Both the position numbers and the translations under genes were made by a program. Positions 958-49,097 of a DNA stretch of 64,000 nucleotides are shown in pieces (the first letter of the stretch is position 1; each line of letters begins with the position of its first letter). Below the pieces are notes generated by a model, which did no database searches, was not told the origin of the DNA, and worked only from the letters and a program-made list of their open reading frames with translations. The stretch spans positions 930,001 through 994,000 of the forward strand of contig NZ_CP015103.1 of NCBI RefSeq assembly GCF_002214505.1, in the 5' to 3' direction. Source of the DNA: Thermococcus siculi. Lineage in GTDB: Archaea; Methanobacteriota_B; Thermococci; Thermococcales; Thermococcaceae.

Positions 958-2300
958 ATCCCCATCCCCCCGAAGTTGAACTTCTTGGCCATCTTGGCCA
1001 GCTTCCTCTTGTCCATGCTCTTGAACATCTTCTTCATCTGGTTGTACTGATTCAGGAGTTCCCTGACCTCTGCCGTGCTCGTTCCGGAACCCCTGGCTAT
1101 GCGCTTTATCCTGGAGTAGTTGATTATCTCCGGGTTCTCGAGTTCCTCCTCCGTCATGGAGTCCATTATTATCCTGTACCTTCTGAGCTTCTCCTCGCCG
1201 ACCTTGACCGCTTCCTCTGGGAGCGAGTAGCCGAGTCCGGGTATCATCTGGAGGACCTGCTTGAGCGGCCCCATCTTCTGCATGGCCTCCAGCTGGGCGT
1301 ACATGTCCTTGAGGTTGAACTTGCCCTTGAGGAACTTGTCCAGGTCTTCCTCCTTGAACTCCTGCTGCTTCTGAAGCTCCTCGAGCTTCTCAAGGAGGCC
1401 CTCAATGTCCCCCATTCCGAGGAGCCTGGAAACGAAGCGCTTGGGGTCGAAGGCCTCGAGGTCGTCTATCCTCTCGCCGACACCTATGAATTTTATGGGT
1501 GCACCAGTGGCGGCAACGGCGGAGAGCGCTCCACCACCCTTGGCGGAACCGTCGAGCTTGGTCACGATTATGGAACCTATCGGGGTTGCCTCCTTGAAGG
1601 CCAGAGCCTGGTTGTAGGCCTGCTGGCCGATGGTTCCGTCTATGACCAGTATGACCTCGTGGGGTTTTATGGCCTCGCTTATCTGCTTCATCTCCTCGAT
1701 GAGGCCCGACTCCTCCTTGTGCCTTCCGGCGGAGTCCACTATGATGACGTCGACCCCTTTCTCCTTGAAGTACTCCACTCCCTCTCGGGCGAGCTTCACC
1801 GCGTCCTTCTCGTTGGGATCGCCGAAGACCTCTATTCCCAGAGGCTCGACCAGCTGCTTGAGCTGGAAGTACGCTCCCGGACGCCAGGTATCGGAGCAGA
1901 CGAGGCCGACCTTGTAGCCCCTCTTCTGGAGGTGTCTCGCCAGTTTCGCCACGCTGGTGGTCTTACCGGAACCCTGAATACCAACCGTGAGCAGGATAGT
2001 GGGCTTCTCCCTGATTTCAAGGGGCTTTGCCTCCTTCCCGAGGAACTTGGTGAGTTCCTCATAGACTATCTGGATTATGTGCTCCTTCTTGGAGGCGCCA
2101 GCTGGAGGCTCCTCCTCGAGTGCCCTCTTCTCTATGGTCTTCGTCAGCTGGAGCACGAGCCTGACGTTAACGTCAGCCTGAATGAGTGCCCTCTGTATGT
2201 CTCGCACTACCTCCTTTATCGTCGCCTCGTCCACCGTCCGCGAGCGGGCGAGCTTTTTGAGGGCGCTGTTGAGTGCCTTTCCAAGCTTTTCCAGGGGCAT
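954..2300 (-). CDS. srp54: signal recognition particle GTPase SRP54
   Basis: The 448-residue protein subunit of SRP; it binds 7S RNA and nascent signal peptides and docks with FtsY. The N domain (about 1-90) is followed by a G domain with G1 [15 protein letters not shown], the DSAGRH motif, [14 protein letters not shown] and a closing [15 protein letters not shown] Met-rich M domain follows ([20 protein letters not shown], then [16 protein letters not shown] near the end). Length and domain order are normal for archaeal SRP54. The start ATG at 2300 has GGTGA at 2307-2311 and a TATA element at 2331-2340. It heads an operon with a RAM-domain and a Cys-cluster protein. Confidence 0.97.
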
Positions 2301-45093: not shown

Positions 45094-46353
45094 ATGGTCG
45101 AGATTGACCCGTTTGAGATGGCTGTTCAGCAGCTTGAGAGGGCTGCTCAGTACATGGACATAAGCGAAGAGGCCCTTGAGTGGCTCAAGAAGCCCATGAG
45201 GATTGTTGAGGTTACCGTCCCCCTCGAGATGGACGACGGTTCTGTCAAGGTTTTCACCGGTTTCCGCGTTCAGCACAACTGGGCCCGCGGTCCGACCAAG
45301 GGTGGCATTCGCTGGCACCCGGCCGAGACCCTCAGCACCGTTAAGGCCCTCGCAACCTGGATGACCTGGAAGGTCGCCGTCGTTGACCTCCCCTACGGTG
45401 GAGGTAAGGGTGGCATCATCGTCAACCCGAAGGAACTCTCCGAGAGGGAGCAGGAGAGGCTCGCCAGGAACTACATAAGGGCCATCTACGACGTCATCGG
45501 CCCGTGGACTGACATCCCAGCCCCTGACGTTTACACCAACCCGAAGATCATGGGCTGGATGATGGACGAGTACGAGACCATCATGAGGAGGAAGGGCCCG
45601 GCCTTCGGTGTCATCACCGGAAAGCCGCTCAGCATCGGCGGTTCACTCGGTAGGGGCACCGCCACCGCCCAGGGTGCCATCTTCACCATCAGGGAGGCCG
45701 CCAAGGCCCTCGGCATCGACCTCAAGGGCAAGACCATCGCCGTCCAGGGTTACGGTAACGCCGGCTACTACACCGCCAAGCTCGCCAAGGAGCAGCTCGG
45801 CATGAAGGTCGTCGCCGTCAGCGACAGCCGCGGCGGCATCTACAACCCGGAGGGCCTCGACCCGGACGAGGTCTTCAAGTGGAAGAAGGAGCACGGCTCA
45901 GTTAAGGACTTCCCGGGAGCCACCAACATCACCAACGAGGAGCTCCTCGAGCTTGACGTCGAGGTTCTCGCCCCGGCCGCCATCGAGGAGGTCATCACCG
46001 AGAAGAACGCTGACAACATCAAGGCCAAGATCGTCGCCGAGGTTGCCAACGGTCCGGTCACCCCGGAGGCCGACGACATCCTCCACGAGAAGGGCATCCT
46101 CCAGATACCGGACTTCCTGTGCAACGCCGGTGGTGTCACCGTCAGCTACTTCGAGTGGGTCCAGAACGTCAACGGCTACTACTGGACCGAGGAGGAGGTC
46201 CGCGAGAAGCTCGACAAGAAGATGACCAAGGCCTTCTGGGACGTCTACAACACCGCCAAGGAGAAGAACATCCACATGCGCGACGGTGCCTACGTCGTCG
46301 CCGTCAGCAAGGTCTACCAGGCCATGAAGGACCGCGGATGGGTCAAGCACTGA
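45094..46353 (+). CDS. gdhA: glutamate dehydrogenase
   Basis: A 419-residue hexameric NAD(P)-dependent enzyme, abundant in Thermococcales, interconverting glutamate and 2-oxoglutarate plus ammonia. Seen: [20 protein letters not shown], the catalytic [36 protein letters not shown], and the nucleotide motif [16 protein letters not shown]. Codon use is strongly biased (GTC, CTC, AAG, GAG), as expected of a highly expressed gene. ATG 45094. It is monocistronic; AT-rich DNA with gene remnants follows. Confidence 0.98.
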
Positions 46354-46455: not shown

Positions 46456-46799
46456 ATGGGGGGTGAAATCTTGGGAGAAAGGATGAAGCCCTGTTGGGGA
46501 TTCCACTTGGGGTCGTATATGCTCTGATTTTTTATGTACTGGAAATTGTCATAGGTTGATGATCATGATCCAGTTCTTCTATACCCTCCTACTAGATAGG
46601 CGGCATAGGGGCATGCAAGATTCGCCAATCACTATGTGTCCCTTCTGTATCATATCAACAGGTATCTACTCTTTCCACCAACGAGAAACCTCTCTTTAGT
46701 GGGTCTGGATGGGAAGAAGTGCTTCCCTGTGACTTTGACAGGGAAGAAAGGAAAAAGGCGTACGAAGAACTCAAGAGGGAGTTAGACAAGTACATTTGA
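46456..46799 (+). pseudogene. decayed gene(s) downstream of gdhA
   Basis: This stretch looks coding but broken. ATG 46456 opens MGGEILGE; one added base near 46479 would continue it as KDEALLGIPLGVVYALIFYV and LEIVIG to the stop at 46559, a small membrane protein. A promoter-like ACTTTTTAAAT is still present near 46416. Then an ORF open from 46596 ends at 46799 with SGWEEVLPCDFDREERKKA and YEELKRELDKYI, a good amphipathic helix without a clear start. Sequence between them carries stops. No family is recognised. The region 46354-46840 has no other gene. Confidence 0.4.
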
Positions 46800-46840: not shown

Positions 46841-47206
46841 TTATTTTTGCACCTCATTCTCAAGCTTGGCTTTGTAAAGCCTCCCTATGGCCTGCATCGC
46901 TGCGGCAACCATTATGCCCGTCAGCACCATTCCCAGTATGGGGAGAACGAGAGCACACAGCACCTTCGATACCGGCGTCGTTGGTGATAGGTCTCCATAA
47001 CCCACAGTGAAGGCCGTTATGAAGGCGAAGTACATCCCGTTCCAGATGCTCAGGTGCTCCTGTCTGGCGAGGACCAGGCCGAAGAGTGCGATTATGATGA
47101 ATAACCCGAGGAGTATGCTCCTCACGTAGTAGAGCACCTTGAGGTAAGTGCGGAAAAAGAGACGAAAACTCACTATGTCCATGTCGAGTTCCCTTTCACC
47201 AGACAT
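46841..47206 (-). CDS. two-helix potassium channel subunit
   Basis: 121 residues with the pore signature: an outer helix (YYVRSILLGLFIIIALFGLV), a pore helix ending in the selectivity filter FITAFTVGYGDLSPTT (TVGYGD at 67-72), and an inner helix (VLCALVLPILGMVLTGIMVA) with a glycine hinge. No voltage sensor and only a short C-terminal tail (RLYKAKLENEVQK), so there is no RCK/TrkA domain. Four subunits would form a K+ pore. It starts three bases after the stop of the 387-residue nucleotide-enzyme-like protein, so the two are coupled. Confidence 0.9.
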   Translation of the reverse strand: MSGERELDMDIVSFRLFFRTYLKVLYYVRSILLGLFIIIALFGLVLARQEHLSIWNGMYFAFITAFTVGYGDLSPTTPVSKVLCALVLPILGMVLTGIMVAAAMQAIGRLYKAKLENEVQK

Positions 47207-47209
47207 TGG

Positions 47210-48373
47210 CTACACCTTCGCCCAGTATTCCCTCTCCTCCAGCATGGCTCTCACCATCTCGTCCTCGTCCCTGAACATCGTCCTCCTCGAGGGGTTCTGC
47301 ATGCCGTAGAACTCCATGAACGGACTCGGGCGCCTCTTGAACGGATAGTAGAGGTATATCGCCGCGAGCGTTCTGTAGGCTTCCGCCATCTCACTGATGA
47401 CCCCTGCAGAAACCCCTTCGGCGTAGTGGTAGACCGCTATTGCCTTGCTAACGTCCACGAGGTTGAAGTCCCTCTCGACGAGCTGGCGCCTCAGTATGTC
47501 CGTGGCCTGCTCTATGTCCTCCCTGTCCAGCTCTTCAACCTCCTCGCCGTCCAGGAGGTGCTTTATCTTGATGCGCTTTATCGAGGGGTCCGCGTTGACC
47601 TGGGCATCGTATTCAGCCACGACCCACCAGTCGTCCAGGGCACCTGGATCGAGGACCGTGAAGTGCTCGCTCAACTTGTCGTAGAAGCCCCTTACCCTGT
47701 GGTAGTACTCCTCCTCGTGGCCCGTCATCGGGTAGCTTAGGTATACGAGCGGTTTCTCCTCCTCGCGGAACAGGAGGTCGAGGAAAACTCTATGCGGGTG
47801 TCTTATGCCGAACTGGAGGACGTAGCGAACCTCGAGGCCCTCCTTTTTAAGCTCGTGGACGAGGGTCTTCACGTGGTTTATGGCATCCTCACGCCACATG
47901 ACCAGCGTGGTGATCTTTATGTTCTCCGGGTTTCCGCCAAAGCGCTCGAACCACTCCGGGTCGTTGATGATCCTCCTCCTGACGGAGAGGACGTCGTCGA
48001 GGACTATTACAACGCGGTTCGGCTTCAGTAGCTTGAGGTTGCTGGCGGTAAACCCTATGACGCTCCCGCTCCCCCAGCGGAATAAACTGGGGGTCGAGAC
48101 GAGATGGTACTCCTTATCGCTTCCGTCTATCTCCTTCCTTATCCTCTCGAAGGCCTCATCCCTTATCTCGTTCATCAAATCCTGGTGGTTTATAGCGAAG
48201 TCAAGGACGTTCTTCCGGGTTATTTTAACGCCCCTCTCCTTTCCAACATCTCTAATGTAGTCAAAGACGTGGTAGTATGCGTAGCTTTCCCCCTTCGCGA
48301 GCTTCAGCGCCTCGGCTATGTACTCGTCCCGCCCGTTGAGCGGGGGTCCGGTAAGCAGGATTATCTCCTTCAT
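47210..48373 (-). CDS. P-loop-like plus nucleoside 2-deoxyribosyltransferase-like fusion protein
   Basis: 387 residues in two parts. Residues 1-200 look like an AAA/adenylate-kinase-type fold: MKEIILLTGPPLNGRDEYIA is a Walker-A-like loop in which the usual Lys is Arg (GPPLNGRD), followed by VVIVLDDVLSVRRRIINDPE (Walker-B-like). Residues from about 212 resemble nucleoside deoxyribosyltransferases: PLVYLSYPMTGHEEEYYHRV, NLVDVSKAIAVYHYAEGV, SAGVISEMAEAYRTL (catalytic-type Glu). Neither activity is proven. It precedes a K+ channel gene by three bases, hinting at a nucleotide-linked membrane function (inference). ATG 48373 has GGTGGTGGAATGAAGG context. Confidence 0.6.
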   Translation of the reverse strand: MKEIILLTGPPLNGRDEYIAEALKLAKGESYAYYHVFDYIRDVGKERGVKITRKNVLDFAINHQDLMNEIRDEAFERIRKEIDGSDKEYHLVSTPSLFRWGSGSVIGFTASNLKLLKPNRVVIVLDDVLSVRRRIINDPEWFERFGGNPENIKITTLVMWREDAINHVKTLVHELKKEGLEVRYVLQFGIRHPHRVFLDLLFREEEKPLVYLSYPMTGHEEEYYHRVRGFYDKLSEHFTVLDPGALDDWWVVAEYDAQVNADPSIKRIKIKHLLDGEEVEELDREDIEQATDILRRQLVERDFNLVDVSKAIAVYHYAEGVSAGVISEMAEAYRTLAAIYLYYPFKRRPSPFMEFYGMQNPSRRTMFRDEDEMVRAMLEEREYWAKV

Positions 48374-48485: not shown

Positions 48486-49097
48486 TTGACTGAAAAGCTA
48501 AAGGGAACGACTACAGTCGGCATTGTATGTAGGGACGGCGTGGTCCTGGCAGCGGACAGAAGGGCGTCGCTCGGCAACATGGTGCTATCCGAGAACGTAA
48601 CCAAGGTCTTCTGGATAGACGACCACCTGGCCCTCGCGGGGGCCGGTAGTGTCGGCGATATTCTGGGCCTCGTCAGGCTTCTCCGCGCGGAGGCCAAGCT
48701 CTACAGGGCCAAGGTAGGGAAGGAGATGAGCGTCAAGGCCCTCGCAACGCTGACTTCTAACATCCTTCACGGGAGCAGGTTCATGCCCTACTTCGGGTGG
48801 TTCCTCATAGCGGGCCACACCGGAAAGCCGGGGCTTTACTCGGTTGACATGGCCGGCGGCGTTACCGAGGACAGGTTCACGGCCGCCGGTTCGGGAATGG
48901 AGTTCGCCTTCTCGATACTGGAGTCGGAGTATAAAGATGACATCCCCGTAAGTGAGGGGGTTAAGCTCGCCCTCAAGGCCATAAAGGCCGCCACCAGGAG
49001 GGACGTTTTCACCGGAGGCGGCGTTACCCTCGTTACCGTCACGGAGGAAGGGTACAGGGAGTGGACGGAGGAGGAGATAAAAGCACTTCTGGAGTGA
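48486..49097 (+). CDS. psmB: 20S proteasome beta subunit
   Basis: 203 residues. A seven-residue propeptide (MTEKLKG) precedes the catalytic Thr of mature [20 protein letters not shown] and K of the site are visible ([21 protein letters not shown]), as is the C-terminal [12 protein letters not shown]. The start is a TTG at 48486 with AGGGGTG at 48473-48479; no ATG is available nearby. It makes the peptidase chamber with alpha subunits encoded elsewhere. Two bases separate it from the FttA frame, so the two are cotranscribed. Confidence 0.95.

Follow-up and report, generated by a model that had tools for sequence, protein, structure and literature searches.

A conserved archaeal two-domain protein family with an adenylate-kinase-like half and a predicted nucleotide glycosidase half, and its variable K+ channel neighbour in Thermococcus

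Introduction

What does a protein that resembles two nucleotide enzymes joined end to end do in Thermococcus siculi, and does it do so together with the small K+ channel encoded directly behind it? The locus lies in a stretch of 64,000 nucleotides, here termed the window, from a 2.03 Mb genome on a single contig. Both open reading frames were found where a preliminary description of the locus had placed them, and the spacing it gave, three bases between the stop codon of the larger gene and the channel ATG (47204-47206), proved correct. The genes of the locus are as follows.

47210 to 48373, minus strand, stop codon included: coding sequence of the 387-residue two-domain protein (adenylate-kinase-like plus NDT/DNPH1-like; open reading frame check), here called the fusion gene
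47210 to 47212, minus strand: stop codon of the fusion gene
46841 to 47206, minus strand: 121-residue two-helix K+ channel without a cytoplasmic domain (Pfam PF07885, two hydrophobic stretches)
46991 to 47008, minus strand: selectivity filter TVGYGD, channel residues 67 to 72
48486 to 49097, plus strand: divergent upstream neighbour, whose product we take to be the proteasome beta subunit; adjoining the fusion gene in 57 of the 82 loci surveyed, in flanks of unequal length
45094 to 46353, plus strand: convergent downstream neighbour, presumably glutamate dehydrogenase; following the fusion gene in 71 of the 82 loci surveyed, in flanks of unequal length
46470 to 46787, plus strand: remnant, broken by frameshift, of a gene for a DUF4389 membrane protein, in the space that separates the channel gene from glutamate dehydrogenase; not part of the pair (tblastn in two frames, three-frame view)

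Here, we trace the distribution of the two genes and the ancestry of the two protein halves. Our main finding concerns the fusion protein, which belongs to a conserved family of archaeal proteins resembling nucleotide enzymes; in this family the kinase loop is disarmed and the glycosidase site appears armed.

Distribution of the fusion family

The 387-residue protein belongs to a two-domain family that occurs across the archaea and is apparently uncharacterised so far; a literature search, partly among the matches listed, found no paper on the two-domain protein. We take TK1430 to be its ortholog in Thermococcus kodakarensis and TK1431 to be the glutamate dehydrogenase gene of that species. 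In the available excerpt of one study, TK1430 is named only as flanking a terminator (PMC13260591).

Within the Thermococcaceae, 83 of 94 genomes carry the fusion gene, each in a single copy (that of G035 is split over two contigs). The 11 genomes without it comprise the incomplete assemblies G003 (78%) and G050 (86%) and all nine members of genus g3, probably Pyrococcus by our assumption; given its absence from all nine, the gene is not essential to the family as a whole. Our locus survey covered 82 fusion-gene loci, leaving out G085 and including G051 with just 82 bp of downstream sequence. None of the 82 has an internal stop, and the presumed proteasome beta and glutamate dehydrogenase genes both flank the fusion gene in 50 of them. 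Conservation extends over both halves: in 24 close Thermococcaceae rows, 113 of 204 positions are invariant in the N-terminal half and 114 of 183 in the C-terminal half.

A profile of the close rows found one further relative among 115 genomes of the same phylum (G114, E 1.8e-11), and the G114 protein as query gave matches in 6 archaeal genomes outside the class, of 297 searched. With an 11-row profile, matches were obtained in 8 of 29 genomes from one other phylum, 4 of them with two-domain proteins, and in 20 of 236 genomes from another, 17 with two-domain proteins. We then rely on a diverse alignment of 36 rows, made up of 12 Thermococcaceae (reduced to this number) and 24 others; L147 and L153 were dropped from it as the same genes as L142 and L143, as were the single-domain kinases L149, L150, L151, L169 and L171 and the single-domain glycosidases L152 and L170. 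The corresponding profile matched 182 of 349 archaeal genomes. Many of these matches comprise the kinase half alone in open frames of about 200 amino acids, as expected of ordinary adenylate kinases, and at least 56 of the 349 genomes have a match over at least 260 of 335 model positions. The two-domain family also occurs in genomes of 0.7-0.9 Mb.

Around 44 distant family loci, we found no common operon partner except a glutaredoxin-like gene and lineage-limited neighbours. The small glutaredoxin-like gene lies divergently upstream in 14 of the 44, within 17-272 bp in 13 of these; examples include L139 (4717-4959), L148 (2229-2465), L225 (2680-2913), L228 and L237-L244. Two of four tested glutaredoxin-like genes exceed the Pfam Glutaredoxin cut-off, and the other two, those of L139 and L148, contain no cysteine.

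The kinase-like N-terminal half

Built on the 24 close rows, a first AlphaFold model gave a poor C-terminal domain, with pLDDT values of about 30-40 for most of residues 300-360, and was not used for folds. The model computed from the 36 diverse rows reached a pLDDT of 89.9 and a pTM of 0.90 (model m07d1583b58e6), and structure prediction of the two halves recovered both a P-loop-kinase fold and an NDT fold. Two features concern the first half.

47762 to 48373, minus strand: residues 1 to 204, archaeal adenylate-kinase fold (VIA-align match to 6ln3; profile match)
48320 to 48352, minus strand: residues T8 to Y18, degenerate P-loop TGPPLNGRDEY with Arg15 for Lys and Asp16 for Ser/Thr

The N-terminal half is descended from an archaeal adenylate kinase, whose fold it has kept while losing the canonical Walker A lysine and Ser/Thr. 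Residues 1-204 align with 6ln3 over 187 residues (Z 18.7, rmsd 2.4), and the N-terminal profile matches archaeal adenylate kinases with a best E of 1.6e-17. Against the curated adenylate kinase model NF003122/PRK04040, the window protein scores 17.0 bits, below the cut-off of 155 bits.

A Walker-A-like loop with arginine in place of lysine had been noted at the outset and is borne out by the comparison: Arg15 is present in all 81 Thermococcaceae loci that cover the position, as well as in 24 of 24 rows of the close alignment. The complete loop reads TGPPLNGRDEY in 79 of 82 loci and TGAPLNGRDEY in two, the split gene of G035 not covering it. A loop so nearly fixed in the Thermococcaceae is being maintained rather than decaying. 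Over the 36 diverse members, a canonical Walker A (GxxxxGK[ST]) occurs once, position 15 is occupied by R in 21, K in 6, A in 4, T in 3, M in 1 and S in 1, and there is no conservation at position 16. Near-invariant aromatic residues at F98 (34/36), W100 (34/36) and W160 (35/36) suggest an altered ligand site. The sole member with a canonical loop, GLPRVGKT, is L172 (991-2133, minus strand), which could represent either the ancestral state or a branch of active kinases.

These data bear on whether the protein might be bifunctional, with an N-terminal half that phosphorylates by means of Arg15 or another residue and a C-terminal half acting on the product or substrate. The uniform Arg15 of the 81 covering loci places the loop under constraint, and adenylate kinases of methanococci in the PDB likewise do without the Walker lysine (GVPGVGGTT in alignments), so that its loss is no proof of lost kinase activity; the canonical loop of the distant L172 also fits such a scheme. 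Against it stand the mixed occupancy of position 15 and the unconserved position 16 across the family, the 17 bits reached of the 155 needed for NF003122, and the availability of a dedicated enzyme. A separate, ordinary adenylate kinase with the intact loop GIPGVGKST is encoded elsewhere in the same genome, and NF003122 is matched above its cut-off in 91 of 94 Thermococcaceae genomes. On balance we regard a second catalytic activity in the N-terminal half as unlikely.

The glycosidase-like C-terminal half

The features of the second half are the following.

47213 to 47761, minus strand: residues 205 to 387, NDT/DNPH1-like glycosidase domain (structure match and hhalign)
47741 to 47743, minus strand: Y211, predicted triad tyrosine (CtNDT Y7, DNPH1 Y24), in 36 of 36 members
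47468 to 47470, minus strand: D302, predicted triad aspartate (CtNDT D62, DNPH1 D80), in 36 of 36 members
47390 to 47410, minus strand: S322 to E328 (SAGVISE), with E328 the predicted nucleophile (36 of 36 members) and S322 at the place of DNPH1 S98 (34 of 36)
47645 to 47647, minus strand: P243, after the second strand, in 36 of 36 members; aligned to a proline of 7o62 in just a 3.1-bit segment

The preliminary description had called this half deoxyribosyltransferase-like, an assignment that structure confirms and to which Pfam is blind in the window protein. In the predicted model, residues 205-382 match the NDT 7o62 (Z 12.7, rmsd 2.0, 130 residues aligned), and the half also matches the NDT 8rh3 (Z 12.2) and human DNPH1 8rqd (Z 10.6, 134 residues). 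A profile of the C-terminal half was moreover aligned by hhalign to L152 with 95% probability (E 3.1e-8), and L152 in turn matches rat Rcl/DNPH1 with an E of 1.1e-17. L152 is a standalone archaeal DNPH1-like protein (1363-1758, plus strand) from genome G308, which belongs to the same phylum as G280.

Other sequence searches gave little. The window protein has no match to PF05014 (gathering threshold 28.8 bits); the best family member reaches 20.3 bits, and 5 of 36 members match below the cut-off at E up to 0.01, the best at 6.2e-4. Searched against PDB sequences, the C-terminal profile found the NDT superfamily with a best E of 0.11, next to the unrelated Ile-tRNA ligase (0.17) and hepatocyte growth factor (0.56); the superfamily value became 0.0012 when a PF05014 protein was added to the profile. 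The window protein had no phmmer match in the PDB, and the profile of close rows had a single chance match. PF05014 is matched in 7 of 94 Thermococcaceae genomes, in 5 of them above the cut-off, and hhalign of our profile against one such protein, L223, was not significant (2.6%). Since Pfam scores stay below the cut-off and PDB sequence matches are weak, the assignment of the C-terminal half rests on structure and on the link through L152. By these two lines, the half has the NDT/DNPH1 fold, and the residues expected of a glycosidase triad are all in place.

The triad residues could be placed by comparison with characterised enzymes. Their roles in CtNDT are described in the available part of PMC12645435, and excerpts of PMC10603095 give the DNPH1 triad as Y24, D80 and E104, with S98, six residues before the glutamate, on the phosphate. 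Asp and Glu of our family align with those of L152 by hhalign, and the triad is also found in further profile alignments. The spacing from S322 to E328 is identical in 36 of 36 members, G324 is invariant (36/36), the exceptions at position 322 are one His and one Thr, and SAGVxSEM is present at all 82 Thermococcaceae loci.

Two of these positions speak to the substrate. D82 of CtNDT, which precedes the glutamate by six residues, lies near the 5'-OH according to the excerpted text of PMC10913048; a serine in its place points to 5'-phosphorylated substrates. In MilB, the excerpts of PMC10603095 report Phe in place of Tyr, and a change from Phe to Tyr moves the preference to deoxyribose. The family thus combines a nucleotide-type residue, Ser322, with a deoxy-type tyrosine, Tyr211. 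The region after the second strand is less straightforward. DNPH1 carries an E55/H56 element there (PMC10603095, as excerpted), whereas a water-excluding proline at this place is a transferase feature of NDTs according to the part of PMC12884076 available to us. The window protein reads VLDPGALDD and has no Glu-His; in the DNPH1-like L152, Glu-His comes after a gap. The markers conflict, with a hydrolase-like serine as in DNPH1 and a transferase-like proline as in NDTs.

Proposed mechanism

We infer a dNMP N-glycosidase or phosphodeoxyribosyltransferase because of these active-site residues and the precedent of DmtZ, a phage enzyme known to us from excerpts of PMC12884076. In the scheme that we consider somewhat probable, the fusion protein is an enzyme of dNMP glycosidase or base-exchange type whose other half, derived from adenylate kinase, is a non-canonical nucleotide-binding domain; its role is in salvage or clean-up, and the channel is optional. 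E328, oriented by Y211 and helped by D302, would attack C1' of a 2'-deoxynucleoside 5'-monophosphate, with S322 anchoring the 5'-phosphate, and the base would depart. The enzyme-bound deoxyribose-5-phosphate could then pass to water, which amounts to hydrolysis, or to another base; the transferase-type P243 hints at the latter. The kinase-like half would bind a nucleotide, probably without the usual phosphorylation, and either regulate the glycosidase or present its substrate. Such an activity would serve nucleotide salvage or clean-up rather than defence.

Alternatively, the protein might have no catalytic activity at all, both halves binding nucleotides for sensing or scaffolding, for example in proteasome or glutamate metabolism. 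Such a regulator would be in line with the degenerate P-loop, with the two flanking genes shared by 50 of 82 loci, and with the glutaredoxin-like gene that lies a short way upstream, in divergent orientation, at 13 of the 44 distant loci. The flanking genes nevertheless vary between lineages, and a triad that is invariant in 36 of 36 members across archaea is unexpected for a pure binder, which leads us to regard a non-enzymatic role as improbable.

The channel gene and its linkage to the fusion gene

The small gene encodes, as first described, a TVGYGD channel without a cytoplasmic regulatory domain: Ion_trans_2 is matched over residues 35-107 with 51.1 bits (cut-off 22.5), and no second Pfam domain exceeds its cut-off. 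Of the 94 genomes, 21 have a strong ortholog (E up to 1.1e-38), and each of these belongs to the window's genus; weaker matches within the family fall mostly in open frames of more than 330 amino acids. Over 20 genomes, mean identity to the window copy is 65% for the channel, compared with 90% for the fusion protein. A literature search found no relevant paper on the small Thermococcus channel.

Each of the 21 strong channel orthologs follows the fusion gene and shares its strand, and no ortholog was found away from it. Of the 82 fusion loci, 21 have a linked channel, one has a remnant and 60, G051 with its short downstream sequence among them, have none. A possible channel start is located 0-4 nt after the fusion stop in 16 of the 21 channel-bearing genomes, which fits co-transcription there, and in the present genome the channel is probably co-transcribed with the fusion gene. 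The first possible start is further from the stop in G038 and G071, and in G048, G058 and G066 the two genes are about 380-420 nt apart with an intact 111-residue DUF4389 gene between them on the opposite strand. Channel loss is visible in G059 (contig C10, near 94722-94805; L216), where channel fragments sit beside an intact fusion gene.

Mapped on a fusion-gene tree of 81 rows, the presence of the channel has to switch 9 times, and well-supported branches demand no fewer than 8 of these switches; such counts do not separate gain from loss, and because the site is always the same, a single gain followed by many losses is likeliest. Beside the 44 distant family loci, a motif scan covering mostly 1.5 kb flanks found no channel-filter motif. 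The interval before glutamate dehydrogenase also hosts the DUF4389 gene, whose intact copy from G048 matches PF14333 and which occurs, intact or broken, in 13 of 82 intervals including that of the window, 5 with the channel and 8 without. That channel and DUF4389 gene differ in presence among intervals marks the interval as variable, a place where no fewer than two small genes for membrane proteins appear and disappear. We conclude that the channel is most likely an optional gene in this variable interval and that it is not needed for the conserved function of the fusion gene.

The notion of a two-gene unit is thus retained in part. Close spacing and plausible co-transcription hold for 16 of 21 channel-bearing genomes, and since the channel, where it occurs, is always a neighbour of the fusion gene, the two may be functionally coupled in those lineages; an obligate unit, by contrast, does not agree with a channel in 21 of 82 loci. 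By the criterion set at the outset, under which genes unlinked in relatives would speak against the idea, the outcome is half against it: no channel ortholog turned up elsewhere than beside the fusion gene, yet most fusion genes have no channel. What is seen is a lineage-specific neighbourhood, which makes for a weak case for a unit.

The most specific form of the unit idea holds that the adjacent channel is gated by a nucleotide which the fusion enzyme produces or breaks down, in an ion-homeostasis or abortive defence system. Strict adjacency of all 21 strong orthologs (94 genomes), the possible start within 0-4 nt in 16 of them, and the action of DrHyd/NDT relatives in antiviral nucleotide systems, as stated in the excerpted part of PMC9503650, would favour such a system. 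Gating by a product is not supported, as the channel has no ligand-binding domain by Pfam. Its state changes at least 8 times on the tree, it is lacking at 60 of 82 fusion loci, its filter motif is missing from the surroundings of the 44 distant loci, and an opposite-strand gene separates the pair in three genomes. Abortive defence fared no better: neither protein matched a family of PADLOC-DB 2.0.0 at E up to 1, phage and plasmid searches were empty, and the fusion gene is single-copy and near-universal in the Thermococcaceae (83 of 94 genomes) rather than patchy. A defence or mobile origin was rejected on these empty searches, a defence role of the fusion protein has no support, and we consider the gating or defence system very improbable. 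Among the matches listed from BFVD, names were mostly of the kinase type or missing, TM-scores were low, and none was convincing over both domains.

Significance

The two-domain protein spans several archaeal phyla, with a glycosidase site whose residues are intact and a kinase loop that is disarmed. Should it act on deoxynucleotides, archaeal nucleotide metabolism would gain a clean-up or base-exchange step, and the protein would exemplify the fusion of a pseudo-kinase to a glycosidase. Our survey also corrects the tempting but weak view of channel and fusion gene as a two-gene defence unit. As a more speculative extension, and a long shot in our estimate, the family might perform base exchange throughout the archaea: the C-terminal half would shuttle deoxyribose 5-phosphate between bases by combining DNPH1-type phosphate binding with NDT-type water exclusion, the retired adenylate kinase would read adenylate levels, and the minimal K+ channel would have been recruited to the transcript as an extra output in part of Thermococcus.

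Comparison with known systems

The N-terminal half resembles archaeal adenylate kinases (6ln3, 6pjw, 1nks) in fold and sequence descent over residues 1-204. It differs from them in lacking a canonical Walker A in 35 of 36 members, in the near-invariant F98, W100 and W160, and in the fused second domain.

With DNPH1/Rcl and MilB, the C-terminal half shares the fold, the Tyr/Asp/Glu triad and the serine six residues before the glutamate (S98 and E104 in DNPH1), as far as the excerpts describe these enzymes. In contrast to DNPH1/Rcl, the family carries an adenylate-kinase-like domain and, past the second strand, an invariant proline that is mostly preceded by Asp or Asn; at this place L152 shows its gap and Glu-His, and the excerpts locate the DNPH1 element. 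NDTs (7o62, CtNDT) are alike in fold and triad, their proline after the second strand being weakly aligned, but the family has serine where CtNDT, in the excerpted account, places D82 near the 5'-OH.

The small channel is similar to two-helix K+ channels (Ion_trans_2; the KcsA/MthK pore) in its TVGYGD filter and two hydrophobic helices; unlike these, it has no RCK or other regulatory domain, and its strong orthologs are confined to the window's genus among the 94 genomes.

Likened by description, DmtZ of Z-DNA phages combines, as the fusion family appears to, a nucleotide-type 5' pocket with the transferase proline (PMC12884076, as excerpted). DmtZ differs in being a phage enzyme with measured dAMP hydrolase/transferase activity, and the excerpts of the same source mention a dUTPase domain and describe no adenylate-kinase-like half.
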